A stretch of 64,000 nucleotides of DNA from Streptomyces sp. NBC_01485 (GTDB lineage Bacteria; Actinomycetota; Actinomycetes; Streptomycetales; Streptomycetaceae): NCBI RefSeq assembly GCF_036227125.1, contig NZ_CP109435.1:4960001-5024000 (forward strand), read 5' to 3'. Positions 23,032-52,207 of this stretch are shown one piece after another. How positions within the stretch are numbered: the stretch's first letter is position 1; each line of letters starts with the position of its first letter. The notes beneath the pieces are model-generated. The model made no database searches. It was not told the DNA's origin and saw nothing but the letters and a program-made list of their open reading frames with translations. Both the position numbers and the translations under genes were made by a program.

Positions 23032-23046
23032 GCGTGGACTGACCGA

Positions 23047-35874: not shown

Positions 35875-36131
35875 GGCCCTCGCCGTCCTCGCGGCGGAGT
35901 GCCCGAAGGTGGCGCCAGGTCGAGGGAGAAGCACGCCTCGCGGACGACGGCCTGCTCCGTCTTGTCGAAGTCGCCGTCGGCGCCGCCGATGACGATGCCG
36001 ATCTGGATGACCGCCCGTGCCTCGGCCGGCTTCTTCTTCGCCTTGGCGATCTCCTGCAACACGCTGACCTTGCCGAAGTCGAAGTCGGCGGTCAGCTTGT
36101 CGATGTTGGCGTCGAAACGCCGCTGAAGATC
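35862..36131 (-). pseudogene. TerB-like gene, 3' part (interrupted by the transposon island)
   Basis: On the minus strand the frame reads DLQRRFDANIDKLTADFDFG, then KVSVLQEIAKAKKKPAEARA and GIVIGGADGDFDKTEQAVVR, which is the C-terminal half of the TerB-type tellurite-resistance protein of Streptomyces. The N-terminal half is at 52208-52430, on the other side of the island. Joining the two at the repeated GATCTTC (minus strand) restores one frame. The last ~15 residues (PSGTPPRGRRGPWRT) differ from what I remember of the family, so a second change near the 3' end is possible. Confidence 0.85.
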
Positions 36132-36168
36132 GGCGTTGGGGACCAGCGGTACAGCCGTTGGCGCTAAG
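36132..36168. repeat. Left terminal inverted repeat of the Tn3-family element
   Basis: 37 bp beginning GGCGTTGGGGACCAGCGG and ending GTTGGCGCTAAG. It matches the right end (52171-52207) except for two bases in the outer six. It is the binding site of TnpA. Confidence 0.9.
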
Positions 36169-36265
36169 GATTTGATCTTCGTCGTCTAGCACAGGTGATC
36201 GGTCTGCTGCGGAGGTTCGGAGGAAGATCCCCGACCCCCGGCCGGGGCTGATTACCGTCCGTCGC

Positions 36266-39200
36266 ATGCCGGTGGAATTTCTGACTGATGAGCAGGCCGA
36301 GGCGTACGGGAAGTTCGCCGAGGAGCCGACGAGGCCCGAGCTGGAGCGGTTCTTCTTCCTCGACGACGAGGACAGGAAGCTGATCGCGAAGCGGCGTGGT
36401 GACCACAACCGGCTCGGTTTCGCCCTCCAGATGTGCACGGTCCGCTACATCGGGCTGTTCCTGGAGGACCCCCTGGCGGTGCCGTGGCCGGTGGTGAAGC
36501 ACCTGGCCGTGCAGTTGGAGATCGAGGACGTCTCCTGCGTCAAGGAGTACACCGAGCGGTTGAAGACGGCGTACGAGCACGCGTGGGAGATCCGCGATGC
36601 GTACGACTACCACCCATTCGAGGACCACACCCAGGGCCGGAGGTTCCGGGCGTTCCTGCACGGCCGGGCGTGGACGGCGCACGCCGAGGGACCGAAGGCG
36701 CTGTTCGATCACTCGGTGGGCTGGCTGCGCCGGCACCGGGTGCTGCTGCCGGGGGTGAGCGTGCTGGCCCGCCAGGTCTCCGAGGTCCGCGCCATCGCGG
36801 AGAAGCGGCTGCACACCACGGTCGCGAAGGCCGCCCGCAGGGCGGACCCCGCGCTGCCCGGTGATCTGGTGGCCACGCTGAAGACTCCGGAGGGCAGGCG
36901 GTACTCGGAGCTTGAGCGGATGCGCCAGCCTCCGACGCGGACCACGGGTACCGCGATGAAGGGCGCCTTGCAGCGGGTCGAGGACATCGCCGCCTTCCAG
37001 CTGGGCCGTTTGAAGCTGGAGCAGATCCCGCCGAACCGGCTGTCCGCGCTGGCCCGGTACGGGCTGGGCACCAAGGCGCCGAAGCTGGAGCGGACCCCGG
37101 AGCCCAAGCGCACGGCGATGCTCACCGCGGTGGTGCGCCACCTGGAGGCCAAGGCAATCGACGACGCCCTGGACCTGTTCGAGATTCTGATGGCCACCAG
37201 GCTGATCAGCACCGCGAAGCGGTCCACCGACAAGCAGCGCCTCTCCACGCTGCCGCAGTTGGAGAAGGCATCGCGGCTCGTGGCCAAGGCCGCGACGGTG
37301 TTCATCGAGGAGCTGGAACTCATCGAGCAGAGCGGCTGCGCTGTGGACGTGACCGCACTGTGGGCGGCGCTGGAGGAGGTCGCGCCCCGGGCGGCACTGT
37401 CCAGCGCGGCCACGGTGGTGGTGAGCCTGGTCCCGGAGGACGACGGGACGGCGGAGTCCGCGCTGCGTGGGGCGCTGGCGCTGCGCTACAACACGGTCAA
37501 GCCGTTCCTGTCGCTGCTGGGCGAGACCTCGGCGCTGGGGGCTGCGACTGGCGGGGCCCGCGTCCTGGCCGGGGTGAAGAGGCTGCCGGCGCTGTCGCGG
37601 CGGAAGGTGGGCGAGAAGCCGCTGCTGCCGCGGGAGGTCGACGACAAGCTGGTGCCGGCGCACTGGCGCAAGGCGGTGTACGCGAACACCGAGCTCCCGC
37701 AAGGGGCGGTGGACCGCGACGCGTACGTGGTGTGCGTGCTGGAGCAGTTGTTCCGCGCGCTCAAGCGCCGCGACATCTTCGCCTCTCCCTCGCACCGCTG
37801 GTCCGACCCGCGCGCCCGCCTGCTGGACGGCAAGAGCTGGGAGGCGGTGCGCGAGGACGTCCTGGCGGGGCTGAGTCTGGAGGAGGACGCCGAGGAGCAC
37901 CTGCGGGAGCTGACGGCGGTCCTGGACGCGACGTGGAAGCAGATGGCCGAGCGCCTGGAGGAGGCTGGCACCGGCGCGAAGATCAGCATCGAGGTCCAGC
38001 CGAACGGTAGGGCGAAGCTGAACGTGGAGAAGCTCCACGCGCTCGGAGAGCCGAAGTCCCTGGCCTGGCTGCGCGGCCGGGTCGAGAAGATGCTCCCGAA
38101 GATCGACCTGCCGGACCTGCTGTTTGAGGTGCAAGCCTGGACCGGATTCCTGGACGCCTTCGTGCACCTGGGCGACGGCAAGACCCGCATGAAGGACCTG
38201 ACCACCTCAGTCGTCGCGCTCCTCGTGAGCGAGGCGTGCAATATCGGCATGACCCCGGTCATCAACCCGAACCACGAGGCGCTCACCCGGGCCCGGCTCG
38301 TCCACGTCGACCAGTACTACCTGCGCGCGGAGACCATCGCCGCGGCGAACGCCGCGCTGATTGAGGCCCAGGCCCGGGTGGCGATCGTTCAGCACTGGGG
38401 CAAGGGACTGCTCGCCTCCGTCGACGGCCTGCGCTTCGTTGTCCCCGTCCGCACCATCAACGCCGCCCCCAGCCCCAAGTACTTCGCGAAGAAGAAGGGC
38501 ATCACCTGGCTGAACGCCATCAACGACCAGGTCATCGGCATCGGGCAGATGGTCGTGCCCGGCACCCCACGCGACTCCCTGTTCATCCTGGACGCCCTAC
38601 TGAACCTGGACGGCGGAGTGAAGCCGGAGATGGTCGCCACCGACAACGCCTCCTACTCCGACATGGTCTTCGGCATCTTCAAGATGCTCGGCTACCGCTT
38701 CTCCCCGCGCTTCAAGGACCTCGAAGACCAGCGGTTCTGGAAGGCGGCGATGCCCGGCGCCGAGACGGCGGGCGGGTACGGGCCGCTGGAGGCGCTGGCC
38801 CGCAACAAGGTCAACGTGAAGAAGGTCCTGACCGCCTGGCCGGACATGCTGCGGGTGGCCGGCTCCCTGGTCACCAACCAGGTGAGGGCCTACGACCTGC
38901 TGCGGATGTTCGGCCGCGAGGGCCACCCCACCCCGCTGGGGCAGGCGTTCGCCGAGTATGGGCGGATCGCCAAGACCCTGCACCTACTCGCCGTCGTCGA
39001 CCCGGTCGACGACACCTACCGGCGTCAGATGCACAAGCAGCTCACCGTCCAGGAGTCCCGCCACAAACTCGCCCGTGACATCTGCCACGGCAAGAAGGGC
39101 ACCATCCACCAGGCGTACCGGGACGGGATGGAAGATCAGTTGGGGTCGCTGGGTCTCGTCTTGAATGCGGTGGTGCTCTGGACGACCCGGTACATCGACG

Positions 39201-39403
39201 CTGCCGTCGCCCAGCTCCGCGCCGAGGGGCACGAGATCCGCGACGCGGACGTGGCCCGTCTCTCCCCGCTCAAGCACAAGAACCTCAACGTCCTGGGTCG
39301 CTACAGCTTCACCGCTACCCAGCCGGCGAGCGGCACCCTGCGCCCGCTGCGCGACCCGGACGCGGCCGGACTCGATGACGACGAGGACGGCGCGGAGGAC
39401 TGA
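36266..39403 (+). CDS. tnpA: Tn3-family transposase TnpA
   Basis: 1045 residues, full length for the family, starting MPVEFLTDEQAEAYGKFAEE about 100 bp inside the left end. The N-terminal DUF4158-type DNA-binding domain covers residues ~1-170. The DDE catalytic residues can be placed: Asp720 in ASVDGLRFVVPV, Asp793 in MVATDNASYSDMVFG, Glu930 in VQESRHKLARDICHGKKG. All motifs are intact, so replicative transposition is likely still possible. It acts on the 37-bp ends. Confidence 0.97.
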   Translation: MPVEFLTDEQAEAYGKFAEEPTRPELERFFFLDDEDRKLIAKRRGDHNRLGFALQMCTVRYIGLFLEDPLAVPWPVVKHLAVQLEIEDVSCVKEYTERLKTAYEHAWEIRDAYDYHPFEDHTQGRRFRAFLHGRAWTAHAEGPKALFDHSVGWLRRHRVLLPGVSVLARQVSEVRAIAEKRLHTTVAKAARRADPALPGDLVATLKTPEGRRYSELERMRQPPTRTTGTAMKGALQRVEDIAAFQLGRLKLEQIPPNRLSALARYGLGTKAPKLERTPEPKRTAMLTAVVRHLEAKAIDDALDLFEILMATRLISTAKRSTDKQRLSTLPQLEKASRLVAKAATVFIEELELIEQSGCAVDVTALWAALEEVAPRAALSSAATVVVSLVPEDDGTAESALRGALALRYNTVKPFLSLLGETSALGAATGGARVLAGVKRLPALSRRKVGEKPLLPREVDDKLVPAHWRKAVYANTELPQGAVDRDAYVVCVLEQLFRALKRRDIFASPSHRWSDPRARLLDGKSWEAVREDVLAGLSLEEDAEEHLRELTAVLDATWKQMAERLEEAGTGAKISIEVQPNGRAKLNVEKLHALGEPKSLAWLRGRVEKMLPKIDLPDLLFEVQAWTGFLDAFVHLGDGKTRMKDLTTSVVALLVSEACNIGMTPVINPNHEALTRARLVHVDQYYLRAETIAAANAALIEAQARVAIVQHWGKGLLASVDGLRFVVPVRTINAAPSPKYFAKKKGITWLNAINDQVIGIGQMVVPGTPRDSLFILDALLNLDGGVKPEMVATDNASYSDMVFGIFKMLGYRFSPRFKDLEDQRFWKAAMPGAETAGGYGPLEALARNKVNVKKVLTAWPDMLRVAGSLVTNQVRAYDLLRMFGREGHPTPLGQAFAEYGRIAKTLHLLAVVDPVDDTYRRQMHKQLTVQESRHKLARDICHGKKGTIHQAYRDGMEDQLGSLGLVLNAVVLWTTRYIDAAVAQLRAEGHEIRDADVARLSPLKHKNLNVLGRYSFTATQPASGTLRPLRDPDAAGLDDDEDGAED

Positions 39404-39615
39404 CGGCGTCAGGTACCGACCGCGGCGTCGATCAGCTTGTGGGCCGCCGCCTCCGGCAGCCGCTTCGACTCCGTGGCGGTCTGCTCTCTGGGGGCATGCC
39501 GACGCTACGGGCAGCCGCTGGCACTGAGCGCCACCTGGCCCGCTTGGACAAAATATGCCGTTCACCGCATGGACCGCCGGAGCACGGGCGGGATCGGAGT
39601 CGAGGTCTTGTGCCC

Positions 39616-40179
39616 TCAGCCCAAGCTGCCGGCGGTACGGCCAAGTACGGTGCGGAACCGTTCCCGCCCCGCCCCGATGCTCGCCTCCCACAGTCCTGCG
39701 GCGTCACCGGACACCGAGAGGGCCTGGAGCCCGTGCTCCTGTGCAAGGAACCCGGCGCCGAACACATTCTGGTCGAGCATCCCCATCGCAGTGAGCGCCG
39801 CATGGCCACAGGACACCGCGTCATCAACGCTCCCGGAGCCGTTGGCCAGTAGGGCATATCGCAGGACCAGGGCGGCGAAGAAGGTGTTGATGCCGACGAC
39901 GTCGGTGACCACTTCGTCATCCGTCGGCTGCAGCTCGGGGAACCGCTCCAACACACGTACGCGCTCCGCGCCGTCGGAGAGCGGGCGGTCGGCATGCCAG
40001 AGGTCGCGTACGGACTCCGCGTAGAAATCCACGTCGTCTTCCCGGCCCGGTGCGCCCACCCGCAGCCCCACAAACAGTGGCGCCATGCGTTCGGTACAGG
40101 CGGCTACGTACAGACGGACCATCTCTGCGTCCCCGCCGCGAAGGGTCTCCGTGACGGCCTCTTCCACCAGCTTCTTCAC
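39616..40179 (-). CDS. Passenger gene of unknown function (Tn3 element)
   Basis: 187 residues from the GTG at 40179 (AAAGGTGAGG just upstream); the frame is open to 40218. Text: VKKLVEEAVTETLRGGDAEM, RLYVAACTERMAPLFVGLRV, later VGINTFFAALVLRYALLANG. It is a soluble helical protein with no recognised domain. Codon use is less extreme than in core genes. It lies between tnpA and the two-gene DUF2199 unit, all on the minus strand. Confidence 0.7.
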   Translation of the reverse strand: MKKLVEEAVTETLRGGDAEMVRLYVAACTERMAPLFVGLRVGAPGREDDVDFYAESVRDLWHADRPLSDGAERVRVLERFPELQPTDDEVVTDVVGINTFFAALVLRYALLANGSGSVDDAVSCGHAALTAMGMLDQNVFGAGFLAQEHGLQALSVSGDAAGLWEASIGAGRERFRTVLGRTAGSLG

Positions 40180-40321
40180 GTCCTCACCTTTCCTGTAAGC
40201 CGTCCGTATGGCCGTCATGCTCGCAGGAGGCTGGCGCGTTCCAGTGCCTGGGGCACCAGTACCGCAACAGGGTCAACGCTCCGCAGATGTGACTGAGCGC
40301 TGAAAGCTTGGGCTGCAGGAG

Positions 40322-40987
40322 TCAGTGGCCGCTGAGGCCCCATACGTCGAGTCCGCCGTAGATATGGGCCTCCAGGCAGTGGGCCGCGGCGAAGCCGACG
40401 GCTCCGCCGCGGTAGATGGCGATGAGCGAGTCCTTGCCCCGCCACCAGGTGTCAGCGAGTCCCTGGACTTCGGGCACTGGCTCGAATCCGTCGAGGTCCA
40501 CCTGTTCGACGGCGTCGCCCTTGATCTTCGTGACGGTCTTGGCCCAGCAGCCCGCGTGGTGGGCCAGTGCCAGGGCTTCCACCCATCCCTCCGTGCTGGC
40601 GTGCAGAGGTGTCCAGTGGTCGGCGTCGATCCCGAACTCGCCTCCGGGCCCGATCATGAATCCGTGGGCCATGGACACCCGGCAGTCGCCGGCCGGGAAG
40701 CGCCACCCGTTCGCGGCCGAGCCCTCGGGAACGTCGGCTTCGAGAACGCGCGGGCCGCCCTCGTACGCGGGAGCCGGGGGCAGGGCGATGCCGCCCCAGA
40801 GCTCCTGGAAGGCCACGGCTCGGTCGATCTCCGCACCGGGTATCCCGTGCTTGAGCCATACGTCCCGATGCCTCCGGATGTCCCGGCGGGGAACACGGAG
40901 CCCGTGCGCTTCGACGAAGTACCGGGCCCGGCGGCTCAGGCCTTCTGGCGCCCGAGGGGTCCGCGGCACTCGCGCGTCGGCCCTCAC
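40322..40987 (-). CDS. Passenger gene of unknown function, coupled to DUF2199 gene
   Basis: 221 residues from a GTG at 40987 that overlaps the DUF2199 stop (GTGA). Residues 1-40 are Arg-rich. The middle is Trp/Gly-rich (ENGWRFPAGDC-like NGWRFPAGDCRVSMAHGFMI) and the C-terminus reads IYRGGAVGFAAAHCLEAHIY then GGLDVWGLSGH. No family is recognised. The tight coupling suggests a functional pair with the upstream gene. Confidence 0.7.
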   Translation of the reverse strand: MRADARVPRTPRAPEGLSRRARYFVEAHGLRVPRRDIRRHRDVWLKHGIPGAEIDRAVAFQELWGGIALPPAPAYEGGPRVLEADVPEGSAANGWRFPAGDCRVSMAHGFMIGPGGEFGIDADHWTPLHASTEGWVEALALAHHAGCWAKTVTKIKGDAVEQVDLDGFEPVPEVQGLADTWWRGKDSLIAIYRGGAVGFAAAHCLEAHIYGGLDVWGLSGH

Positions 40988-41511
40988 GACTGGTTCCTGT
41001 CGCGGGAGGGGTGAAGCACCGCCGCGGCAATCTCCCTTACGCGGTCCCGGGTGATTCCCGTGCGCTGTTCGACGGCGAGGGGGTGGTCGGTGGGTTCGAG
41101 TTCGACGAGAGGGCGCTCGCCGACCGGGCGGGTGTGGACGTGAGTCTTTAGGTTGAGAGTCGTGGGCGAGTAGGCCGAGAGGTCAGTAGTGAGCCAGCCG
41201 AAGTAGGGCGCCTCCGCTTCTCGGCCGGTGGTGTCCCACAAGTCCGCCGCGCGGGAGAAGTTCTCGCGGCTGAGCGAGACCCAGACAGCCCAGGAAAACA
41301 CCTCGTCGCTGCCGATGACTGGTATCTCGATCAGACCCTTGACGAAGTAGTGCTGTGCCCGGATCACGCACTGGTCCGACGAGAGCAGGCAGTCGTCCGC
41401 GTCAGCGAAGGCCGGATCCCACACGGCCGGGGCCTCGGCCGTGTAGTTCATGGGCAGCTCAGGGTGGTGCGCCCCACAGCACGAGCAGAGGAATCCGAGA
41501 TCACTGGTCAT
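40984..41511 (-). CDS. DUF2199 family protein
   Basis: 175 residues from the ATG at 41511. It starts MTSDLGFLCSCCGAHHPELP, with the CSCCG zinc-type motif, and continues with SDQCVIRAQHYFVKGLIEIP and SWAVWVSLSRENFSRAADLW, the DUF2199 pattern. Function unknown; proteins of this type are often found as single accessory genes. The paired gene downstream overlaps it. Confidence 0.85.
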   Translation of the reverse strand: MTSDLGFLCSCCGAHHPELPMNYTAEAPAVWDPAFADADDCLLSSDQCVIRAQHYFVKGLIEIPVIGSDEVFSWAVWVSLSRENFSRAADLWDTTGREAEAPYFGWLTTDLSAYSPTTLNLKTHVHTRPVGERPLVELEPTDHPLAVEQRTGITRDRVREIAAAVLHPSRDRNQS

Positions 41512-41665
41512 GACGTGGAGCCTAGTGACCGCCTTCGCCACCCTCGATCGGCACCCACTGGCACCACCAACGAGCATGCGGGCCGCGCGTAGCGCTCAGG
41601 CGGGCCAACTGCGTCCGGTCACAGCAGCCTGGCGACCTCCGGCCACGGGCATCACACACAGTCAT

Positions 41666-41785
41666 TCTCATAAATGAACATCTGTGAGAGTTCTGCGAGA
41701 GCGCCGGAAGTGATCACTTTTCCGCAGGTCAACGCTCGCAAAAGTCCTCTCGAAACCCGCACGTTGTGCGACGGGGTTCTGAGAG
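41666..41785. other. Candidate res site (three imperfect dyads) upstream of tnpR
   Basis: Three spaced inverted repeats precede the tnpR start: TCTCA...TGAGA (41666-41689), GCGAGAGCG...CGCTCGC (41695-41739, with the inner palindrome AAGTGATCACTT), and CTCTCGAAACCC...GGGGTTCTGAGAG (41747-41785). Tn3-type res sites have three resolvase-binding subsites next to tnpR. The block is AT-richer than its surroundings. Assignment is by position and symmetry only. Confidence 0.45.
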
Positions 41786-41794
41786 ACTCCCAGC

Positions 41795-41812
41795 ATGGAT
41801 CTCACGCCCGAT
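41795..41812 (+). pseudogene. tnpR: tnpR resolvase, fragment 1 (start codon and residues 1-6)
   Basis: ATGGATCTCACGCCCGAT encodes MDLTPD. It joins in frame to fragment 2 at 43609 when the composite element 41813-43603 and one CCGAT copy are removed, giving MDLTPDQAALAVERHDCPNC, the normal N-terminus of Streptomyces Tn3-type resolvases as I remember them. Confidence 0.8.
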
Positions 41813-41961
41813 TGTCAGGTTCCGTAGTCGTCTGCACTGATGTCCGAAGTCCTCTGCACGCGCGTCGGCTGAGGTCGGCGACGGTCGCGCTCGTCCGAAC
41901 TTCCCGTGCACTCGACTACGAACGCGCTGGTCACCTGTGCAGGCGACTTCGGACATTGACA
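41813..41961 (+). repeat. 149-bp miniature inverted-repeat element, copy 1
   Basis: It starts TGTCAGGTTCCGTAGTCG; the complement of its end starts TGTCAATGTCCGAAGTCG. The two ends agree at about 23 of the first 30 positions. It has no coding capacity of its own. It is identical over all 149 bases to copy 2. Confidence 0.9.
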
Positions 41962-42202
41962 CTTCGGAGTCGCGGGAGCCGTGTTGCCGAACCGGCTTTC
42001 CAGGCGCCCGTATCCCCTGCTGATCTCCTCCCGGCTGACGAATGCGCGGTCGAGAATCGCCTCGTGGGCCTTGCCGTACTGGATCACGGCGTTCTGGCTC
42101 ACCGGGGCTGGGGGGCGGCGACTTCACCGGTTCCCCCGAGTCGCAGGCACCGGTGAGCGCCACAGCGGCGACGAGGCACAGCACCCCTGTGCCTCGTCGC
42201 AC
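41815..42202 (-). pseudogene. Lipoprotein gene damaged by a frameshift and by the miniature element
   Basis: From a GTG at 42202 the frame gives a lipoprotein signal: RRGTGVLCLVAAVALTGACD (lipobox LTGAC). At a run of six G on plus (42110-42115) the sensible frame is lost; deleting one base rejoins it to VSQNAVIQYGKAHEAILDRA and EEISRGYGRLESRFGNTA. The gene then runs into miniature element copy 1 at 41961, so its native C-terminus is gone and an element-encoded tail follows to a stop at 41815. The frameshift could be a real mutation, slippage, or a sequencing error. Confidence 0.6.
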
Positions 42203-42213
42203 CGCTGCTCAGG

Positions 42214-42870
42214 TCACGAGTTCTGGCGGCCGATCGACATGTCACCCTTGCGCGGGGCCTTCACGATGATGGTCTTCGTCTTCTTGACGCACGGCGGCGC
42301 GTACCAGGTCTTCACCGAGGTCAGCTTCCAGCCCACCTGCCCGAGAACGGCACGGTACGCCTTGCTGGTGCTGTTCTTGTCGGTGACCGTCTGAGACCCG
42401 GTCCACGTCCACGAGTTGCCGATCTTGACGTCGACCTTCACCTTGGCCTTCGCCACGATGATCTTGGCCTCTGCCTCGTACCCACCGCTGACGTCGAACG
42501 TGAAGGTGTGGGAGCCCGACACTTCCCACTTCACCGACTGCCGGGGCAGGAGCCACGTCGACTGCGGCTCGTCCTTGTCGGCCAGGAAGTACGGCTTCCC
42601 CTTCACGGTGTACGTGGCCGGCTGGTTCACCTCGGGGCAGACGGAACCGAACGCAGACTTCGACGGCCTCTCCTCCGGCTCGTCCCCGTCGAACGCGAAG
42701 TCGGTCTCGTCGTCGACACCGACGACCGTCCCGTCGTTCATGACGATGTTCGTACCGCCGGCCGGTACGGGCTCGTCGTCCTGCGCCGCCGCGCCGGCGC
42801 CGGACGCCGTCAACAGCACGGTCGCTGCGGTCACGAGCGGAAGGGCGGTGCGTGTCAACACGTATCTCAT
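42214..42870 (-). CDS. Secreted protein of unknown function carried by the composite element
   Basis: 218 residues: signal peptide MRYVLTRTALPLVTAATVLL ending near ASGAGAAAQ, then an acidic segment (VVGVDDETDFAFDGDEPEER) and a beta-rich Lys-rich region (YEAEAKIIVAKAKVKVDVKI, then GNSWTWTGSQTVTD) with one late Cys pair region (YAPPCVKK). It could be a pore-type or surface beta protein: the alternating Val/Lys strand pattern is suggestive, but no family is recognised. It is the only intact gene of the composite element and lies 11 bp upstream of the damaged lipoprotein gene. Confidence 0.75.
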   Translation of the reverse strand: MRYVLTRTALPLVTAATVLLTASGAGAAAQDDEPVPAGGTNIVMNDGTVVGVDDETDFAFDGDEPEERPSKSAFGSVCPEVNQPATYTVKGKPYFLADKDEPQSTWLLPRQSVKWEVSGSHTFTFDVSGGYEAEAKIIVAKAKVKVDVKIGNSWTWTGSQTVTDKNSTSKAYRAVLGQVGWKLTSVKTWYAPPCVKKTKTIIVKAPRKGDMSIGRQNS

Positions 42871-43337
42871 GGGTCCCCGTTTCGATGAAGCCGATCACTT
42901 GCTCACGGACAGAAGGACAAGCGCACACCACCGCAGCGCCTTGACGACACCTCCCCGGCTGGCATGCACACGCCGTTTCCGCCTGCCTGTGATTATTGGG
43001 CACGCCAGAGCGGGAAAACCTCAGAGGGACCTCAGACTTTGGCTGGAAAGGCTCGGAGGACGGCGGGGCATCAACCGCCGTACGGGAGCCAAGACCTGAA
43101 CCACCCTCACTACGCGATCGCCGCTCTCCCCAGCTCCTCCCGGCTGACCAAACCGACGGACGCGACACTCCATGCGATCCGCGACGGCTACGCCACCGAC
43201 TGCCCCGGCAACCCCCTCTAAGCGTGGGTGCAGGACGGCGTCCTCGACACCGGGGAAGGCGTGACGATCGTCCTGGCCGTCCTCGCCGCGTGGGGCATCA
43301 CCTGGGCCGTTCCCAACCCGCCCACGCAGGAGGGCAG

Positions 43338-43469
43338 ATGGTGGCGGACACCTCGACCGGTAAACCGACCGTGGACGCTACGGTCGCCTGGTCCGTGGCC
43401 GTCGGCGCCCTCGCCGGGTTCTGCACCCTGGTCTGGCAGGTCCTCCGGGCCGTCTGTCAGGTTCCGTAG
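43338..43469 (+). CDS. Small membrane protein truncated by miniature element copy 2 (43 residues)
   Basis: It starts at an ATG with GGAGG 5 bases upstream: MVADTSTGKPTVDATVAWSV, then AVGALAGFCTLVWQVLRAVC, after which the frame enters the element and stops at 43469. One membrane helix is clear. The frame before it (43228-43337, DTGEGVTIVLAVLAAWGITW then AVPNPPTQ) resembles phage holin-type text, so this may be a prophage lysis-cassette remnant. That is inference. Confidence 0.45.
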   Translation: MVADTSTGKPTVDATVAWSVAVGALAGFCTLVWQVLRAVCQVP

Positions 43470-43603
43470 TCGTCTGCACTGATGTCCGAAGTCCTCTGCA
43501 CGCGCGTCGGCTGAGGTCGGCGACGGTCGCGCTCGTCCGAACTTCCCGTGCACTCGACTACGAACGCGCTGGTCACCTGTGCAGGCGACTTCGGACATTG
43601 ACA
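43455..43603 (+). repeat. 149-bp miniature inverted-repeat element, copy 2
   Basis: Identical over all 149 bases to the copy at 41813-41961 and in the same orientation. Its outer end is followed by CCGAT, which matches the five bases before copy 1. Confidence 0.9.
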
Positions 43604-43608
43604 CCGAT

Positions 43609-43869
43609 CAGGCAGCGCTTGCGGTAGAGCGGCACGACTGCCCGAACTGTGACGCGCCCGCCGGCAGCGCCTGCCGCACCCGAGGCGGGAAGACCGCCGC
43701 GAAGTACCACACCCCCCGTTTTGTCCTGGTCCCTGCACTTCGCGAGGAACTGGAGATTCCTGTCCCCGCGGACCGCCACCCGGGCCGCGCGTGGAAGCAG
43801 GGCCCGGCGCTCGCCGTCGTGCCCGCCCCGCGCACCGAGCGGCCGGTGCGGATCGGGTACGCCAGATAG
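43609..43869 (+). pseudogene. tnpR: tnpR resolvase, fragment 2 (zinc-finger N-terminal domain)
   Basis: QAALAVERHDCPNCDAPAGS, ACRTRGGKTAAKYHTPRFVL and a final RPVRIGYAR followed by a TAG created at the insertion junction. The CPNC...C motif with HTxRF is a zinc-finger module found in front of many actinobacterial resolvases. RIGYAR is the first strand of the serine recombinase fold; its continuation with the catalytic Ser is at 51415. The break is at the 7-bp repeat ACGCCAG. Confidence 0.88.
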
Positions 43870-43959
43870 CCGGGCATGAGACGTGTCCGCGAGAGAGTGT
43901 CCCGCTCTTGATCGGATCACTCGTCTGGTGATGTCGGTCCTCCGGTCAGGGGCCGTGTC

Positions 43960-44766
43960 TCATTCGCCTTTGGGCGCGTTTGGTCCTTTCTCATCCTCCT
44001 TTTGAACAGGAGAGAGAGCATCAGCACCCCGCGCGACGATCGTCTCGTCGAACTCTTCCTGGCGTGCTGCGGCGGTCTGTTGGTCGATCGCGGTGCGCAC
44101 GTCCTCGCCTGGACGACGGGTCGGCGCATCCAGCCGAAGTTCCGGCGGGAACGGTGGAAGTCCGGCCAGCAGTGTTGCCAGGCCGGGATCCTCCACGGTG
44201 ACCAGCGGCTCCAACTCACTCGCCCGAGCCAGAATCCGTCGTAGCTCGATCTGAATGACCTTCAGGTCGAGTTTCTCTCCGGCGACCTCGACGACCCACG
44301 ATTCCTGATCAACTTGTCGCATCGGCACCGAGGGGAAGGCCGGCAGGTCGCCTGTCTCCATTTGGTCGGCACTGGGACGAGGCTGATGGGCCACCCACTC
44401 GTCCAGGCGCTCGTCGAAATGCTCGCTGGCGTCTCGAACCTTCCGGTCCAGGACGGGTGATGTGTCATCGATGTCGAGCAGGTCACGCAAGTAGCTGCCC
44501 CGTTTTTGGCGCCACTCCCAGCCTTCTTGAGTCTGCCCTTTGTTCGTCCTCGGTTTGTCGGTCACGAGGGGCAATAGCATCTTGGAGACCTTGGCGGTGA
44601 ACATGAGGAAGGTCTCCAGCGAGATCCAGGTCCCCGGAGGCGGTGGTGTCAGGCTCGCCTGCGCGTATACCTCGGTCAGTGCCACCTGCGCGTATCGGAT
44701 TTCTTTCGCGAGCCAGGTCAGATAGACCCGATGCGCCCACTCGTCCCAGATCGGCTCGCCGCTCAC
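43960..44766 (-). CDS. Hypothetical passenger protein of the Tn554-like element
   Basis: 268 residues: MSGEPIWDEWAHRVYLTWLA, later SLETFLMFTAKVSKMLLPLV, and a charged C-terminal half ending GADALSPVQKEDEKGPNAPK. No signal peptide, and no recognised domain. Codon use is noticeably less GC3-extreme than core genes, consistent with transfer. It sits at the left end of the element. Confidence 0.75.
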   Translation of the reverse strand: MSGEPIWDEWAHRVYLTWLAKEIRYAQVALTEVYAQASLTPPPPGTWISLETFLMFTAKVSKMLLPLVTDKPRTNKGQTQEGWEWRQKRGSYLRDLLDIDDTSPVLDRKVRDASEHFDERLDEWVAHQPRPSADQMETGDLPAFPSVPMRQVDQESWVVEVAGEKLDLKVIQIELRRILARASELEPLVTVEDPGLATLLAGLPPFPPELRLDAPTRRPGEDVRTAIDQQTAAARQEEFDETIVARGADALSPVQKEDEKGPNAPKGE

Positions 44767-44843
44767 AGTCCACCATCCTTCACCGGCCCCGGACTCTGTG
44801 CCACGGTCAGAGAACCACAGCCACCGGGATAGATCCCCACAGT

Positions 44844-45479
44844 TCAGCCACTGCGTCCAAGCCGCCTTCGTTCAGGCGGGCCGAGCGTCCGTGGCGGATC
44901 GGGGCGACGGTCGAGCGTTGTGACCAGGTGCTCCGTCCATATGTGCCCCCCTTCGCGCGCCGAGCACTTCAGCTCCAGCTCGACCCGTAGGGGTGTGACG
45001 TGCCGGTACTCCAAGTCGATGTAGAACTTGGCGTCCGCGCCGTCCGACATACTGCCGAGATCGAGGCTCTGCACCCGGGCGTACCCCTCGTCGCACTCGC
45101 CATGGGTGCGCTCACCTCGCAGCCCGAGAACGTAGCTGCCGGACGGGGTGACCACGACGCTGCTCAGCGCGACACCATCGTCCTGTTTGATGACCAGCTC
45201 GCCCCGAGGGAAGTTCACGTCCTCCCAGCTCACGTGCCCCAGCTCGACCTTGAAGTGCGGACGGCGTGCCTCGACGCGATCGGCTTCCTCTCCGGCCAGC
45301 TGCCTCCGCATGATCTCCACCTGTTCCTCGGCCGCAGTTGCCTGGCGCTGCGCCGAGGCAGCGGAATCCTCGGCGAGCTGCGCTTGCCGCTTCGCGATCC
45401 GGGTCTGCCATACCGCGATCCCAGCCGCTCCCGCGCTGATGACGGCACCGGCAACTGCGGTTGCGACTCCTGCGTCCAC
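44844..45479 (-). CDS. Membrane-anchored coiled-coil passenger protein of unknown function
   Basis: 211 residues from a GTG. One N-terminal helix (VATAVAGAVISAGAAGIAVW) is followed by a coiled coil (KRQAQLAEDSAASAQRQATA, AEEQVEIMRRQLAGEEADR) and a beta-rich C-terminal domain (HFKVELGHVSWEDVNFPRGE). Layouts with a membrane helix, coiled coil and small beta domain are common in accessory genes of Streptomyces; no function is assigned. Confidence 0.75.
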   Translation of the reverse strand: MDAGVATAVAGAVISAGAAGIAVWQTRIAKRQAQLAEDSAASAQRQATAAEEQVEIMRRQLAGEEADRVEARRPHFKVELGHVSWEDVNFPRGELVIKQDDGVALSSVVVTPSGSYVLGLRGERTHGECDEGYARVQSLDLGSMSDGADAKFYIDLEYRHVTPLRVELELKCSAREGGHIWTEHLVTTLDRRPDPPRTLGPPERRRLGRSG

Positions 45480-45578
45480 GCTCTCTCCTCGCCCATGTGA
45501 TACCGGGTGTCACCGTAGCGGCGGTCAGCCGGCGGCGGGGCGGCTGTCACGCAACACGTTCATCCCGCTGCCCACGGG

Positions 45579-46007
45579 TTATCGGGTCGGGAACACCCGG
45601 ACCTCGGCCTGCGGGGTGGACTCCAAATCCATCCGCAGTCTGATGATCTCGTTGTGCTGGGCTGCGAGGCGGGACAAGGCCGTGACCTGGAACTCTTTCA
45701 AGGCGTCGAGCTCCGTGTTCTTCCTGCTGAGACGTTCGCGCAGCGTCGCGACTTCGGCCTTGAGCCGTTCGATCTGTGCCAGTCGTGGGTCGGGGTGCTG
45801 TCCGGCTTCCTGGGCGGCGGTCCGCTGACGGTCGAACTCGGCTTTCAGGTGCGGGTAGGTGCGGTAGAGCGTCGCCCGCGGCACTCCCGCGAGGGTGCAA
45901 AGGCTCTTGACGTCACACTTCAGGCCATCGGGGACGGAGCCGGCGAGGAGTTGTTGCATCGCGCTCCGGATCCTGGTCTCGGCCTCCGCTTGGTGGTCAT
46001 GCGTCAT
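45579..46007 (-). CDS. DUF6262/TnpC-like accessory protein of the recombinase operon
   Basis: 142 residues from the ATG at 46007, overlapping the upstream recombinase by 11 bases. MTHDHQAEAETRIRSAMQQL, then an HTH-like KSLCTLAGVPRATLYRTYPH, then a long coiled coil (LAQIERLKAEVATLRERLSR). This matches the small TnpC-type protein that follows the two recombinases of Tn554-like elements, where it aids orientation or efficiency. Confidence 0.8.
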   Translation of the reverse strand: MTHDHQAEAETRIRSAMQQLLAGSVPDGLKCDVKSLCTLAGVPRATLYRTYPHLKAEFDRQRTAAQEAGQHPDPRLAQIERLKAEVATLRERLSRKNTELDALKEFQVTALSRLAAQHNEIIRLRMDLESTPQAEVRVFPTR

Positions 46008-48174
46008 GAACGGGTTCCTCGTCAGCATGTTCGGCGGTGTCAATCTCGGCGACGATGCGGGCGGCGCGGTCGAACGCCGCTTGGGCTCGGGCCCGTTCGG
46101 GCTTGGAGAGTCTGGGGTTGCCCAGGAAGACGGACTGGGTGTTCTCCACGTGGTCGGCCCAGATCTGCCGGTGCTGGGGGTGGTGGGTGGCCTGCGGGCA
46201 GCGGGCCGAGTCGCACAACCCCATCAGGGGCTCGGCGGCGTTCGGGGTGCCGGCGAGTTTCAGGCACAACGCCTTGCCCGGGTCGGAGAACCAGCAGTAG
46301 TTACCGACGCCGACATGCAGGGTTTTCGCCTTCACTTTCAAGACACGCTCGACGCGCCGGTCGTCGATCACGGTGACCGGACCGGCGTCGTGCCGCTCCA
46401 GGGCCTGGTCGACGGCCTTGAAGGCGGCGATGAGGTCGCGGGCGCCTTGGCCGCTGGGCAGTATGCCGCGCTGGTAGTCCTCGTAGGCGGCGACGGTCAG
46501 CCGCAGGTGTTCGGCTTCTTCCTCGGCGGCGACTTCGGCTGCGAAGGCGGCCTGGTGTCCGCCGGGGCGGGCGGCATAGCCCTCGGCTGTGGCGACGCTG
46601 ACATGCTTGAGGTGCAGTTTCACGGCCATCAGACCGTGAGGGCGCTGTGCGATGGTCATCGCGAGCGTGCGCCGCAGGGCTCTGGGATTGACCGGGCCGT
46701 CGGGGATGGGATCCAGGCCGAGCCGCAGTCCATATTCGCCGTTCACCCAGGAACGCAGGGCCGTGTAGCGGCTGTTGCTGTTGTTGGACGCCTTGGCGAA
46801 CAGCCGCTCACCCGGGGCGGCACCGGTGAGGGCTTCGGCGGTGGCGATGGCCCGGTGCACGTCCTCGGTGATCACCCAAGCGTCCTCGGTCCCGCCGAAC
46901 GCCTCGCTCTTGATGCGGCGGGAAACCAGGCGGTAGCGGGCGGCGCCTCCGGGCCGCTTTTCCTGTTGGCGGCAGCCGCTCGTCAGTTCCACCAGCTCCG
47001 AGGCACGCATCCCGGAAAGCGCGGAGGTGAGGAAGTAGGCCGCTGAGGTGACGGCATGAACCGTGGCGTCCAGTTGGTGCCGGGCCATCGGCAGAGTCCA
47101 GGGCACTGGTGTGCCGTCATCGTGCCGGGGCACCTGTGCCGCATTGCGGCACCAGGGCTGCTCAAGGCCGCACTCACTCACCCACTGTTCCAGTTCGGGG
47201 CGGAGGGTCTCCAGGTCTCTGCGGTGCCCCATGGCCCCTGCGGCCTCGACTACGAGGGGGTGCCACGACATGTGCAGAAGCGGGTCGCTGGGGGACCATC
47301 CATTCTTCAGGCGCTGGGTGACCGTCGACTTCGTGGCCCGTGGTGCGGACGTTCTGGTTTTTCGCCGTCGCTCGATCGCCTCACGCAGACCGTCGATCTC
47401 CCTGATCAGCAGGCCCCGCCGCGAGGCGATCTCATGTTCGTCGGCGGCGCGGGCCTCGGCCGCCTCGGCCGCCAACAGCGGGCCGATCGTCTCCAGCAAG
47501 TACAGACAGTTCGCCAGCAGTGGCCGCAGCAGGGTGTCCGGGACCGGCAGCACCCGGTTCTCGTCACTACGTACGTATCCGGTGACCTCGTCCGCGCTGC
47601 GGCCCGGCCACGGGCTGAAACCGGTCTGGTAGCAGTCGCTGAGGATCTCCGCGTAGAGGCTGAGGAACTGTGGAATACGAATCCTGGCGACCGTGGTCGC
47701 GGGCGACAGCAGCCGGTCAGGGTTGGTGGCACTGCGCGAGGCAGCCGCGAGATAGACGTCGCAGTGGCGCTGACAGACCTGCGACAGAGTTGTGATGCCG
47801 ACCGAGGTGAGGTGGTTGAACCACAGGGCCAGGTGCCTGAGCTCGGACCAGAGCGAGTTCGGGTTCAGCGGGAACCGGAACGCCTGCGGCAGGATGGCCA
47901 CGTCCGGATGGAGCGGGGCCATCCGCGCCATCAGGTATTCGCGGGCGACCTGCCGCCAGCGGGGGTTGGTGATGGCGGTGAAGTCCAGGATCTTGCGGTG
48001 TGCGGTCATCACCACCGGGGCGTCGGCGAGGCCGGTCAGGTCCCAGACGTCCTGGTCGAATACGGGCCGGGGGCTGCCGGGCTCGCGTCGCAGGCCGGCG
48101 GTCTCGACGACCGGCAGACCATGGAAGGGGCGCAGCCCGGCCAGGGCCGGGGAAGCGGCATGGGCGGTGGTCAC
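45997..48174 (-). CDS. Tyrosine recombinase 3 (large, 725 residues)
   Basis: It starts at a GTG at 48174 overlapping the upstream stop (GTGA); the longer frame to 48489 lies inside the neighbouring gene. Catalytic-domain text: Arg I in TSALSGMRASELVELTSGCR, the second basic motif in NPRALRRTLAMTIAQRPHGL, and His/Tyr in LKHVSVATAEGYAARPGG. The ~350-residue N-terminal part would bind element ends. A Cys/His cluster near the C-terminus (GLCDSARCPQATHHPQHRQ) could bind zinc. Confidence 0.88.
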   Translation of the reverse strand: MTTAHAASPALAGLRPFHGLPVVETAGLRREPGSPRPVFDQDVWDLTGLADAPVVMTAHRKILDFTAITNPRWRQVAREYLMARMAPLHPDVAILPQAFRFPLNPNSLWSELRHLALWFNHLTSVGITTLSQVCQRHCDVYLAAASRSATNPDRLLSPATTVARIRIPQFLSLYAEILSDCYQTGFSPWPGRSADEVTGYVRSDENRVLPVPDTLLRPLLANCLYLLETIGPLLAAEAAEARAADEHEIASRRGLLIREIDGLREAIERRRKTRTSAPRATKSTVTQRLKNGWSPSDPLLHMSWHPLVVEAAGAMGHRRDLETLRPELEQWVSECGLEQPWCRNAAQVPRHDDGTPVPWTLPMARHQLDATVHAVTSAAYFLTSALSGMRASELVELTSGCRQQEKRPGGAARYRLVSRRIKSEAFGGTEDAWVITEDVHRAIATAEALTGAAPGERLFAKASNNSNSRYTALRSWVNGEYGLRLGLDPIPDGPVNPRALRRTLAMTIAQRPHGLMAVKLHLKHVSVATAEGYAARPGGHQAAFAAEVAAEEEAEHLRLTVAAYEDYQRGILPSGQGARDLIAAFKAVDQALERHDAGPVTVIDDRRVERVLKVKAKTLHVGVGNYCWFSDPGKALCLKLAGTPNAAEPLMGLCDSARCPQATHHPQHRQIWADHVENTQSVFLGNPRLSKPERARAQAAFDRAARIVAEIDTAEHADEEPVHDA

Positions 48175-49886
48175 TGGGGCTGTTCCTCCAGGTGCAGCGG
48201 CAAGAAGGCGGCAGTCTCGGCGCTTTGCCGGGTGGCGGCCTCGATGGCGGCCGGGCCGAACCGGGGCAGGATGTCCTCGTCCAGGCGGGCCGTGTACGGA
48301 CCGAAGATCCGCAGGAACTGCGCGGTGGTCATCTGCTGGGCCTGCCGGGAGAAGTACTCCTTGAGCCTGAGCAGGTTGGGCAGGTGACGGGGCGCGAACG
48401 CGGCGAGCGGACACAGCAGACACACCCAGGGCCGGGCCGGACACAAGGTTCCCGCCGGGGCGTGCGGGCCGTTGAGCGGGCTGGCGCACGCGGCGACGAA
48501 CATGTCCTGCTCACCGGAGAGCAGGGCCTTAATGGCCGCCGCGTCCAGACCGGCGTCCTCGACCAGGCGCGGGAAGTCCGCGACGAACGCGGCAGCGTCC
48601 TCACCATTGATCACGACCGGCGGGGCGGCCTTGCGGCGCACATCGCCCTGGGCCTGCTCGATGACGCCCTCCAGAGCGTCCAGCTGGGCCGGGGTGTGAG
48701 AGCTGAGGTAGTGATCTCCCTCGACGCGGGCGCTGTGGTTGGGGTCGATCGTCGTGCGGCCGGTCCAGGTCGTGCGGTCGCGCCGGTGGTGGTAGGTGGC
48801 CCTGACCCGGCCGCCGTGCACCGAAAGGAGCTGCCCGTCGTCGCCGAGCACGCCCGAGGACTCCATCCAGGCCCGGCGCTGGCGCTGGCCGCGGGGGCGG
48901 TCGAAGATCCTGCCCTGCCCTCTTCCGAGTCCGTCATGGCCCACATAGATCCATAGACGACCAGCCAAATCCCCGGCGTGCTCACGTAGTTGGGCCGAGT
49001 GCTCCAGCCAGCGGTCCAGCAGCCGCACGGCATCACGGGGCAGGTTGAGCGCCTCGTCCCCGGTGCGGCCCTTGCGGTAGGAGAGCAGGACCGTGTTCGC
49101 CGAAGTCCGGGTGATGTTGTCGAGTCTCAGGGCGTCGATGCCGTCAGGGACGATGCCCGTGCGCATCGCGAACAGCGTGAGGTAGGCGAACGCCGTCTCC
49201 GAGGCCGGGAACAGCGCGGCTTCGACCGTCGCGCACTGGGCCCGGTCAACACCGGCGCCTCTGCTGAACCGCTCGACGGCCTTTCTCGCCTCCGCGGGGC
49301 CCGCGTGGAGCCAGAGCCAGGCGAGGTTGTCGAAGGTGACGCCGTGGACGGACGGATCGGCGCCCCGGCCGGCTGCCTCCAGCGCCTGACGGTGTGTGCG
49401 GCGGGCCGCCGCGATCTGATTGGTGCGGGAGGCTTCCAGCTGCCGCCATTCACCGTCGCTGTAGGGCCGGTTGGGTCGGCTTTTCTCCACCTTGTTGATC
49501 CGCCGCCCGACCAGGTGACGGCAGATGCCCGGGTCCAGTCCTCCGGCGGTCTCTTGGAAGGCGTTCAGCACCACGCGGATGCGTCGTTCGCGGTGGTAGT
49601 CGCAGGTCAGCCAGTATTGGACCAGCGTGGCCGGGGTCAGATCGGCAAGACCGCCCGTGACCCCCAAGGCATCGAAGTCGCGCGCCATCCGGCGCATCGT
49701 CGTCATGTACTGCCTGGCCACCGAGCGAGTGCGGACCGGCCCGTGCGGATGCGTGGCTGCCACCAGCCCCACGGCCAGGTCCGCGGCCAGCTGCTGGTTC
49801 GGCAGATCGTGCAGGACGCCGTGGTGGATGACGCCGTCCGGCAGCGTGAACAGCACCGCCAGGGGCTGCTGGATCTCGGCCGGCAT
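48171..49886 (-). CDS. Tyrosine recombinase 2 (TnpB-like, 571 residues)
   Basis: ATG at 49886 overlaps the stop of recombinase 1 (ATGA). The box II part is readable: HGGRVRATYHHRR (HxxR), then DPNHSARVEGDHYLSS. The box I position reads FAMRTGIVPDGIDALRLDNI, in which the usual Arg after TG is missing, as if this subunit were catalytically modified. A C-terminal Cys-rich stretch (CPARPWVCLLCPLAAF) may bind zinc. It functions with its neighbours as a multi-subunit integrase. Confidence 0.85.
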   Translation of the reverse strand: MPAEIQQPLAVLFTLPDGVIHHGVLHDLPNQQLAADLAVGLVAATHPHGPVRTRSVARQYMTTMRRMARDFDALGVTGGLADLTPATLVQYWLTCDYHRERRIRVVLNAFQETAGGLDPGICRHLVGRRINKVEKSRPNRPYSDGEWRQLEASRTNQIAAARRTHRQALEAAGRGADPSVHGVTFDNLAWLWLHAGPAEARKAVERFSRGAGVDRAQCATVEAALFPASETAFAYLTLFAMRTGIVPDGIDALRLDNITRTSANTVLLSYRKGRTGDEALNLPRDAVRLLDRWLEHSAQLREHAGDLAGRLWIYVGHDGLGRGQGRIFDRPRGQRQRRAWMESSGVLGDDGQLLSVHGGRVRATYHHRRDRTTWTGRTTIDPNHSARVEGDHYLSSHTPAQLDALEGVIEQAQGDVRRKAAPPVVINGEDAAAFVADFPRLVEDAGLDAAAIKALLSGEQDMFVAACASPLNGPHAPAGTLCPARPWVCLLCPLAAFAPRHLPNLLRLKEYFSRQAQQMTTAQFLRIFGPYTARLDEDILPRFGPAAIEAATRQSAETAAFLPLHLEEQPQ

Positions 49887-51314
49887 CAGACCTCGCCCTC
49901 GAACTCGGCGACCGCGTCGGTATCCACGGCCAAGGCTCCGCCGGCGGTCGCGTAGGCGTCCCGGTAGATCCGCTGGGTGTCGAGCAGATGCAGATACGCC
50001 TGAGTGGTGGCGGCACTGGTATGCCCCAACAAATCACGCAGCACCAGCAGCGGATCGGCCTTGGTCAGATAGAGCGCCAAGGCGTCGTCGCCGCCCGTGT
50101 CCACGACGAGCTGGGCGGCCTGCTGGTAGTAGCCGCGTACCAGCCGCTCCAAGGTGGCCATCGCGAAGGTGTGCCTGGTGACATGGGGATGGACATGCGG
50201 GAAGGACGGCTCAAAGCGGTCCCGGATCCGCTGCGCGGTCCGGCGCAGAACGGTCGCCCAGTCGACGAATGGCCTCCCGCCGGACTGCACCGCCAGCAGC
50301 GCGCTGCCCCCGCCGGGCGCCACCAGCCGCAGCCGCTCGGCCGGGGTGAGGCTGTGCCAGCGCCGTCGCATTCCGTTGATCAGCGCGCCGTCGTGAGTCG
50401 GGGCGTCGACAAATAGCGGGTCACGGGGCCGCCAGCGCGAGCCCTCCGCCGCCGCGGCCCGCTCCCAGCCGATGTAGTCGTGGACCCGGGCCAGGTCCTC
50501 GTAACCGATCCACGTCGACCGGCCCTTTCTGCCCTTCGCCGTCGGCGGAGCCAGCACCAGCGGCACCGGCACCGCCGTGCGGCGGCGCGGCAGCGGCGGC
50601 ACCTCGTAGACCGTCAGATGTGTGAACTCCTGTGACCGCAGCCCAGTGGACAGCGCCAGGCCGATCACGGCCGCGTTGCGGCCCGTCTCCCGCCCCCGGA
50701 ACGAGACGTCCCTCTCGCCCGCCGGGTCGTTGCCCGCCAGGGCGTGCATCAGCAAGTCCGCGTACGGCTTCTCCAGGTACTTCCGCGTCGCGTGCGCGTT
50801 GCCCGTACGCACCGTCGCCAGATTCCTGGCCACCTCCACGCGTGCACCGTCCGGGCGGGTCATCGACTGCCGCACGTAGGAGAACGGGACCGTCGGCGCA
50901 TGCCCCTCGGCCGCCGCCCACTGGTAGAAGGACGAGAGGGTCTTGACCGCCAGATTCCAGCTTGCCGGGCTCAGCCTCGCCTCCAGCGGCCCGGCCAGCC
51001 GGTACTCGGCGTACATCGACAGCCCGTCCCGAAGCCGCTGCCGTTCGGCGAAGACGGAGATTCGGCGGGTGGCGAGGAACTCCGCCCAGCCCTTGAGAGC
51101 CTGGGCGTACGTACGCCACGACCTCGGCGACGGCGCCCCGCTGACCGGTAACTCCCGGAGCCACAGGTTCATCACCACCGTCGACCGAAGCCCCGCGGCG
51201 TCCTCGAAGCAGAGGTCCTCATCGATGAGGACGGGCATGGCCTCCCGGATGACGGGCCGCCCGTACAGGCCCCACTCTTCCCACCCGGCAGAACTGAAGT
51301 AGTGCAGGATCACA
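49886..51314 (-). CDS. Tyrosine recombinase 1 (TnpA-like, ~475 residues)
   Basis: Full catalytic set: Arg in LALSTGLRSQEFTHLTVYEV, HxxR in HPHVTRHTFAMATLERLVRG, and His/Tyr in LLGHTSAATTQAYLHLLDTQ. A SAM-like core-binding domain is at residues ~60-170 (RSWRTYAQALKGWAEFLATR). The start is uncertain: GTG at 51314 is used here, ATG at 51238 and a GTG at 51394 are alternatives and none has a good ribosome site. It is the first gene of the operon, near the right end of the element, and its promoter would lie in the last ~100 bp. Confidence 0.9.
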
Positions 51315-51414
51315 TGACGAACCTGGAGTGAGACACGAGACAGAGCAAGAGCTATCACTCGTACGTGGGAAGGAACTTCACCCCCACGAGACACACTGAA
51401 ACTGCAGAGCTAAC

Positions 51415-52155
51415 GCCAGGACGTCGACCGCGCGGCAGGAGCTGGCGAGCCAGCTCGAAGCCCTTCACCGTGCCGAGTGCCACAAGGTCTTCAAGGAGCA
51501 GATCAGCACCCGGGTGAAGGTGCGGCCCGAACTGGAGAAGGCGCTCGCGCTGGCCCACCAGTTCAAGGAGGCCGCCCCCGAGACGCCCGTCATCCTCACG
51601 GTGCACGAGCTCAAGCGCCTGGCCAGGAACGCCGCCGAGCTGATGACGCTGTCCGCCGACCTCCAGGCCGGCGGCATCCAGCTCGAACTTCTCACCGGAC
51701 CGCTCACCGGGATCTACGACCCCAACGGCATGGGCGCCATGTTCTTCGCCGTGCTCGCCGTCGCCGGACAGATCGAGCGCAACTACATCCGGGAGAAAAC
51801 CCTAGAAGGCCAGGTCACCGCGGCAGCCAAGGGCAACCATGGTGGACGCCCGAAGGTCATCGACGACGACATGCTCACCTTTGCCGTCGCCCTCAAGAAC
51901 AAAGGTGTCCCCGTCCCCGAGATCGCGAAGAAGCTGACCATCAAGACCGGGAAGAACGCGGGCAAGCACCCCTCGGTCGCCTCGCTCTACCGGGCACTCG
52001 CCGAAGCCGAGGAAGCCGCGACGGACGACCACCTGCCGCTGCGACCCAGGCCCGTTCGCATCCGCCGGCCCGAGGACCCGCTCACCGCCGAGGAGATCGA
52101 CCTCCGCGAACGGCTTCAGTCCCAGCCTCATCCGAACGCCGAGAGCCGCAGCTGA
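51415..52155 (+). pseudogene. tnpR: tnpR resolvase, fragment 3 (catalytic and C-terminal domains)
   Basis: In frame from 51415: ARTSTARQELASQLEALHRA (catalytic Ser in ARTST), VHELKRLARNAAELMTLSAD (Arg motif), GIYDPNGMGAMFFAVLAVAG, AQIERNYIREKTLEGQ-type text and a C-terminal HTH (VPVPEIAKKLTIKTGKNAGK, PSVASLYRALAEAE). Upstream in frame is a TGA, and the first possible start (GTG at 51514) lies after the catalytic Ser, so no active enzyme can be made from this piece. Confidence 0.9.
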
Positions 52156-52170
52156 GAGCCGCAATCAAGG

Positions 52171-52207
52171 CTTAGCGCCAACGGCTGTACCGCTGGTCCC
52201 CATGGCC
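52171..52207. repeat. Right terminal inverted repeat of the Tn3-family element
   Basis: Reverse complement of the left end apart from two bases in the outer six. The direct repeat GAAGATC follows at 52208-52214. Confidence 0.9.

Follow-up and report, generated by a model that had tools for sequence, protein, structure and literature searches.

Composite units made of two miniature elements have been described for Pseudomonas (TIME-COMP1 and TIME-COMP2) and for TIME244/IS101. According to the excerpted reports, the two miniature elements of these composites surround passenger genes, the whole moves as a unit and generates 5-bp duplications, and the transposase is supplied in trans (PMC4133298, PMC13367494); the repeats are of the Tn3 family, 38 bp long in the Pseudomonas TIMEs, and are moved by TnpA. 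In the composites around class 1 integrons of Acinetobacter, an identical pair of 439-bp MITEs in direct orientation likewise holds the passenger between its members and is bordered by an outer 5-bp duplication; the 25-bp termini of this MITE are reported, in the available part of the paper, to match no known insertion sequence or transposon (PMC3934969). The tni-defective elements of the Tn5053 family, i.e. the Tn6606 family and class 1 integrons lacking tni, are characterized in extracts of PMC7765201 by 25-bp ends, 5-bp duplications and insertion in or near the res site of a Tn3-family carrier, with tni presumed to act in trans. Their remnant modules are enclosed by a single pair of ends, and members of the Tn5053 family are typically oriented with IRo adjacent to tnpR (extracts of PMC7765201). 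The hunting for res sites by Tn5053-family transposons is described in the same extracts and in those of PMC11406308. The accessible portion of the 2024 MITE review PMC10969869 does not mention Tn5053, and names Tn402 only in the title of a reference. Among the matches listed from the open-licence literature, titles and beginnings of abstracts contained no composite of tni-type miniature elements, nor one in Streptomyces, which agrees with the original prediction that such units are rarely reported in this genus.

The window, i.e. the whole 64-kb stretch of DNA from Streptomyces sp. NBC_01485 that was analyzed, contains a composite non-autonomous transposon at positions 41813–43603. Two copies of a 149-bp miniature element (41813–41961 and 43455–43603, both on the plus strand, delimited by their identity and by flank comparison) agree at 149/149 positions and lie in direct orientation around an interior of 1493 bp; the whole unit measures 1791 bp. 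On its outer sides it is bordered by the target duplication CCGAT (41808–41812 and 43604–43608), whereas the inner flanks differ, being CTTCG (41962–41966) and CCGTC (43450–43454). Both ends of the element begin with TGTCA, and the two 25-bp ends agree at 20/25 positions. The identical copies, their direct orientation, the outer duplication, the unequal inner flanks and the TGTCA start of the ends had been predicted correctly, with exact coordinates. The element is short, has terminal inverted repeats, lacks coding capacity and occurs in more than one copy, as is characteristic of MITEs; from the 439-bp MITE, as presented in the excerpt of PMC3934969, it differs in length and AT-richness. When the window was searched with the end pattern TGTCANNNTCCGNAGTCGNCTGCAC, allowing ≤3 mismatches, only the four element ends were matched, and each of 100 shuffles gave 0 matches.

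The 149-bp sequence has two occurrences only in the genome of strain NBC_01485. Incomplete relatives are present in Streptomyces sp. NBC_01240 and MNU76, and no whole independent copy outside the composite was seen in the genomes searched. Among 392 genomes of the genus (own included), scored on the best 2 candidates per genome, no other genome gave a match over the full length of either the element or the interior. One record of the plasmid collection covers at least 80% of the element, the right end being missing from that copy. The phage collection yielded a single short match to the 1791-bp unit, between its interior and an endolysin gene, and the core pattern of the ends was absent from all viral contigs. 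A donor locus with two copies flanking the interior genes was not found in these searches.

The composite is part of a Tn3-family transposon that spans about 36131–52208. The left terminal repeat of this carrier (36131–36168, plus strand) recurs identically at the left of the plasmid loci L160 and L162, whose right-end partners have 3 and 1 mismatches, respectively; its own right repeat (52171–52208, minus strand) shows 2 mismatches to the left one. The tnpA gene (36266–39403, plus strand; DDE_Tnp_Tn3, PF01526, E 8.7e-126) is 82–98% identical to L160–L163 in those parts upstream of tnpR that could be aligned, the alignment falling into two pieces in L160 and in L162 and being clipped by the locus edge in L163. 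Just upstream of tnpR, three imperfect dyads recognized by eye (41666–41689, 41717–41744 and 41747–41785) make up a res-like site at 41666–41785, and a query of 41650–41812 found matches in 45 plasmid records, of which 40 cover 80% or more of its length. From the dyads and this conservation, we read the non-coding stretch as the putative res site of the carrier. The tnpR gene codes for a serine recombinase with an N-terminal zinc-binding domain (PF24623) and is split into three pieces, all on the plus strand: codons 1–6 (41795–41812), assigned by comparison with plasmid relatives, codons 7 to about 91 with the Phage_zn_bind_8 domain (43609–43865), assigned by the domain match and alignment, and the remainder (51413–52152), which is 97% identical to residues 91–336 of the TnpR protein of L162. 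The composite interrupts the gene after codon 6, 27 bp past the tnpR-proximal dyad, and its right (t-type) end faces the tnpR body. A carrier devoid of its right end, with a simply truncated tnpR, was considered and rejected, since the right repeat is present and tnpR continues on the far side of a second insert. This second insert of about 7.5 kb (43866–51412) splits the same gene at the IGYAR codons and contains three large minus-strand ORFs (49886–51394, 48171–49886 and 45997–48489), the first of which matched Phage_integrase, the third weakly so (E 0.005), and the second not; presumably it resembles a Tn554-like or recombinase-trio element.

When the flanks of the composite are joined, they form the start of an uninterrupted reading frame. 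A 276-base query of the joined flanks matched 68 of 72,556 plasmid records, 42 of which match 80% or more of its length at a single site; since only 18 of the 276 bases are left of the insert, this match alone mainly tests the right side. When the query was extended to 213 bases on the left and 292 on the right of the insert, four of these records, the plasmid loci L160–L163, aligned over 404–407 columns with a gap-free junction, L161 showing two 2-base gaps upstream of it. These empty sites hold a single 5-bp copy, which is CCGAT in L160, L161 and L163, and CCGAC in L162. Two independent insertions into tnpR are unsupported, because neither inner flank of the composite repeats CCGAT.

Next to copy 1, the interior harbors the 5′ part of a predicted lipoprotein gene (41962–42202, minus strand; lipobox by eye), which is cut by copy 1 and frameshifted. 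Its relatives in L180–L183 continue for 80–83 codons beyond the boundary with copy 1, which shows that copy 1 once sat inside the lipoprotein gene. An intact passenger ORF (42214–42870, minus strand) codes for a predicted secreted protein of 218 aa (signal peptide by eye). Proteins with 58–71% identity are encoded in five genomes of the genus (L180–L184), and in four of them (L180–L183) the adjacent gene is a lipoprotein gene matching the remnant in the window. The secreted protein gave no match to Pfam or NCBIfam families or to the plasmid collection, and a search of the own genome revealed no second copy of its gene. Towards the right, the interior resembles pieces of other loci; the fragments at 43079–43340 (plus strand), for instance, have counterparts at other sites within the genus, and one match, on a plasmid, is annotated as peptidoglycan-binding protein. 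The interior is partly degenerate and mosaic. The comparisons show that the interior is foreign to the Tn3-family carrier.

That the composite moved as one piece without carrying a transposase, as had been proposed, is borne out by the outer duplication, the relatives with an uninterrupted target, the foreign interior and the gene cut at the left copy. Together with the identity of the two copies and the tni-type ends described below, these observations make it probable, in our view, that a transposase-less pair of Tn402/Tn5053 miniature elements was moved into tnpR as one 1791-bp unit by TniABQ acting in trans. The 149-bp element would have arisen from a transposon of the Tn402/Tn5053 family (tniA-tniB-tniQ-tniR) when its ends were joined and nearly everything between them was lost. 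Two copies in the same orientation would then have flanked Streptomyces DNA, the left copy, by comparison with the relatives, being located within the lipoprotein gene. TniABQ would have used the outermost left and right ends to mobilize the whole 1791 bp in one step, an enzyme and a route that we infer, and insertion into tnpR beside the res-like site would have created the CCGAT duplication, which is the outcome seen at the locus. Against an origin by TniABQ speaks the insertion inside tnpR with the t-type end facing the tnpR body, opposite to the typical orientation.

We regard as unlikely a route by recombination, which the excerpt of PMC3934969 names as an alternative for the 439-bp MITE composites. 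Here, a single 149-bp element would have inserted into tnpR, with CCGAT on both sides, and a circle consisting of the interior and a further copy would have recombined in afterwards, in the style of a translocatable unit. The final structure would be the same, with identical copies, shared outer flanks and unrelated inner flanks, and the direct orientation of the copies that this route needs is indeed seen. However, 149 bp is short for RecA-dependent exchange, the circle itself must still arise from two flanking copies, and a site occupied by a single copy was seen neither in the 392 genomes of the genus nor in the plasmid collection.

As to the preferred reading, transposition by TniABQ, the 25-bp ends of the element are identical at 18–20/25 positions to the pair of integron repeats given in a figure legend of PMC8248536 and are thus related to IRi/IRt of the Tn402/Tn5053 family. 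When the 25 letters were shuffled, 0/200,000 permutations were as similar as the real ends, and this applied to all four pairings of an end with an integron repeat. The ends consist of 25 bp plus 19-mers, which we take to be TniA binding sites. In the left, i-type end of copy 1 (41813–41859, plus strand), two tandem 19-mers have their cores at positions 10 and 32 of the element, and cores at 10 and 32/33 were present in 17 of the 18 resolvase-adjacent ends examined in relatives, the exception being L046. The right end (41906–41961, minus strand) is t-type by similarity to the tniA-side end of L052/L164, with which its last 33 bp are identical at 31/33 positions; its cores, counted from the right, are at 10 and 41. 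Eleven tniA-side ends examined have further recognized cores at about 50 (other strand), 80 and 111 and none at 41, so that the t-type label rests on the similarity of the outer stretch. The combination of a left end of resolvase-side form with a right end like the tniA-side ends points to the 149-bp element being a miniature tni-type (Tn402/Tn5053-family) derivative, not a Tn3-derived one. As in the Tn402/Tn5053 family, a 5-bp target duplication is found at the composite (and also in the Arthrobacter unit L083, see below), and the insertion lies within or close to res, next to a resolvase gene, in this case inside tnpR; the usual orientation with the IRo end adjacent to tnpR, which is typical but not obligatory, was not found. 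Unlike Tn6606-type elements, the present unit is terminated on either side by a complete 149-bp element that has two ends itself, and it lies the other way round relative to tnpR.

The exact end pattern was detected in 111 stretches of genome_contigs, which according to its description covers 84,980 species; 109 of the stretches are actinobacterial by record title, the other two being a contig labelled Vibrio cholerae and a Thiodictyon MAG. At nine of the 111 loci (L028, L030, L037, L052, L060, L075, L078, L100 and L121), a tniA of one family is located directly inside an end; the end of L037 has 1 mismatch, and L121 is partial. At 101 of the 111 loci, the stretch read contained no tniA of this family: L055 has only a distant (29%) tniA relative, and the other 100 gave no tniA match at E 1e-8. 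A tni operon with the other end matching and 5 mismatches in the tniA-side end is contained in L073 (also L167). Profile matches of the L052 operon were to Mu-transpos_C, TniB (264.8 bits), TniQ and Resolvase, and the L052 TniA shares 61.5% and 62.9% identity with two plasmid-encoded proteins (H44 and H49) that carry the annotation TniA. Autonomous relatives with matching ends (L052, L037, L078 and others) encode tniA, tniB, tniQ and tniR.

Of 112 ends, 16 have the start of a serine recombinase gene at most 450 bp to their outer side, with the gene pointing away from the end in 16/16 cases, and 3 have such a gene on the inner side; about 3 on either side would be expected by density. These counts were obtained with trimmed seeds, and the loci are not independent, some of the 16 being near-copies (e.g. 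L039, L042 and L082). One further gene on the outer side lies the other way round, with its 3′ terminus nearest to the end. Untrimmed seeds had given 12 starts outside and 8 inside, six of the latter with a shared offset of 24 that was ascribed to the seed ORF running through the end; trimming moved all six to the outside, and L038 and L085 dropped from the outside count. The 18 resolvase-adjacent ends used for the core layout stem from the first count, and 16 were retained in the trimmed-seed count. The position of these ends agrees with the res-site hunting of Tn5053-family transposons (excerpts of PMC7765201 and PMC11406308).

Since the ends are of the Tn402/Tn5053 type and not of the Tn3 type, a helper of the Tn402/Tn5053 family probably moved the unit, and going by sequence, this helper was likely TniABQ. 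The search for a helper with matching ends, suggested in the original prediction, thus did yield a candidate, which is TniABQ and not a Tn3 TnpA. In the own genome, no TniA of the Tn402/Tn5053-type family was found, its best TniA-like match being 29% identical (E 8e-12); the composite is therefore probably stranded until a helper enters, e.g. on a plasmid. Mirror-image TniA/TniB-like pairs, 29% identical to the L052 TniA, are located near both ends of the chromosome (22571–24067 and 9118692–9120188). Exact matches to the end pattern in the own genome are confined to the four composite ends. The 16-base core, with ≤1 mismatch, has 37 matches there as compared to 18 for the reversed control, and six of its seven exact matches are within the two 149-bp copies. 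Exact ends are present in 4 of the 392 genomes of the genus (own included). On a plasmid of Streptomyces sp. NBC_00873 (L216), tniABQR and a GNAT gene are enclosed by ends 5763 bp apart, which have 3 mismatches each and no matching 5-bp duplication. Streptomyces sp. MNU76 (L113) was rejected as a source of a helper end, as it contains a 108-bp relic beside what appears to be another transposase gene, in a genome without a TniA match.

The assignment to the Tn3 family in the original prediction, i.e. a true TIME-COMP of Tn3-derived 149-bp elements moved by Tn3 TnpA, did not hold up and is very improbable. The composite layout, with two miniature copies, a transposase-less core and an outer 5-bp duplication, corresponds to that of the published TIME-COMPs (excerpts of PMC4133298 and PMC13367494) but is not specific to Tn3, and the genome contains three Tn3-family transposase genes plus one weak fragment match. 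However, the 25-bp ends share 8/25 positions with the carrier Tn3 end, the only Tn3 end compared, as against 18–20/25 with Tn402-type repeats, and tniABQR is bordered by ends with the pattern of those of the composite. Tn3-type terminal repeats, which in the Pseudomonas TIMEs are 38 bp long (excerpt of PMC4133298), were not found; the repeats of the unit are 25 bp long, of the Tn402/Tn5053 type and combined with 19-mer arrays, which points to TniABQ. A duplication or other rearrangement that placed the 149-bp repeat on both sides, with CCGAT as a coincidence, might account for the partly degenerate and mosaic interior but is hardly credible, as a 5-bp match by chance is expected about 1 in 1000 times, the repeat ends exactly at the junctions, and the flanks join, gap-free, to the uninterrupted gene of the plasmid relatives.

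We consider it about as likely as not that actinobacterial Tn402/Tn5053 transposons shed miniature elements that pair up, capture chromosomal genes and give rise to tni-driven composites hunting for the res sites of Tn3-family transposons. If so, genes could be mobilized by paired miniature elements in a second way, independent of Tn3, alongside the TIME-COMPs. The ends by which class 1 integrons spread are of the Tn402 type. If 149-bp tni-type elements can pair and carry genes, any gene between two of them would become mobile as soon as a tni helper is at hand, and such mobility would be invisible to gene-based annotation. The locus also points to a res-hunting lifestyle of the Tn402/Tn5053 family in Streptomyces and other actinobacteria, and provides a concrete target site and candidate helpers.

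Some further loci deserve separate mention. Arthrobacter sp. ISL-48 (L083:4466–6469) contains a 2004-bp unit whose two tni-type ends match exactly and whose flanks repeat CCAAC as a perfect 5-bp duplication; it gave no tniA match, part of it is masked, and by eye it apparently lies inside a glycosidase-like gene. In Micromonospora sp. KC606 (L116:3249–5300), a 97-bp miniature element of similar end layout is located at the left of a 2052-bp unit with, by eye, an apparent hydrolase gene and a TetR-like gene; it was not counted as a second composite, its flanks being only near-duplications (4/5 bases). The contig labelled Vibrio cholerae 35D (WNZI01000040.1; L061:4305–4581) has actinobacterial-type ends 277 bp apart, with no matching duplication, and assembly contamination is a possible explanation for their presence. 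On a plasmid of Cellulosimicrobium cellulans (L218:2621–10255), tniABQR is followed by merA and merB, apparently representing the actinobacterial counterpart of the mercury transposon Tn5053.
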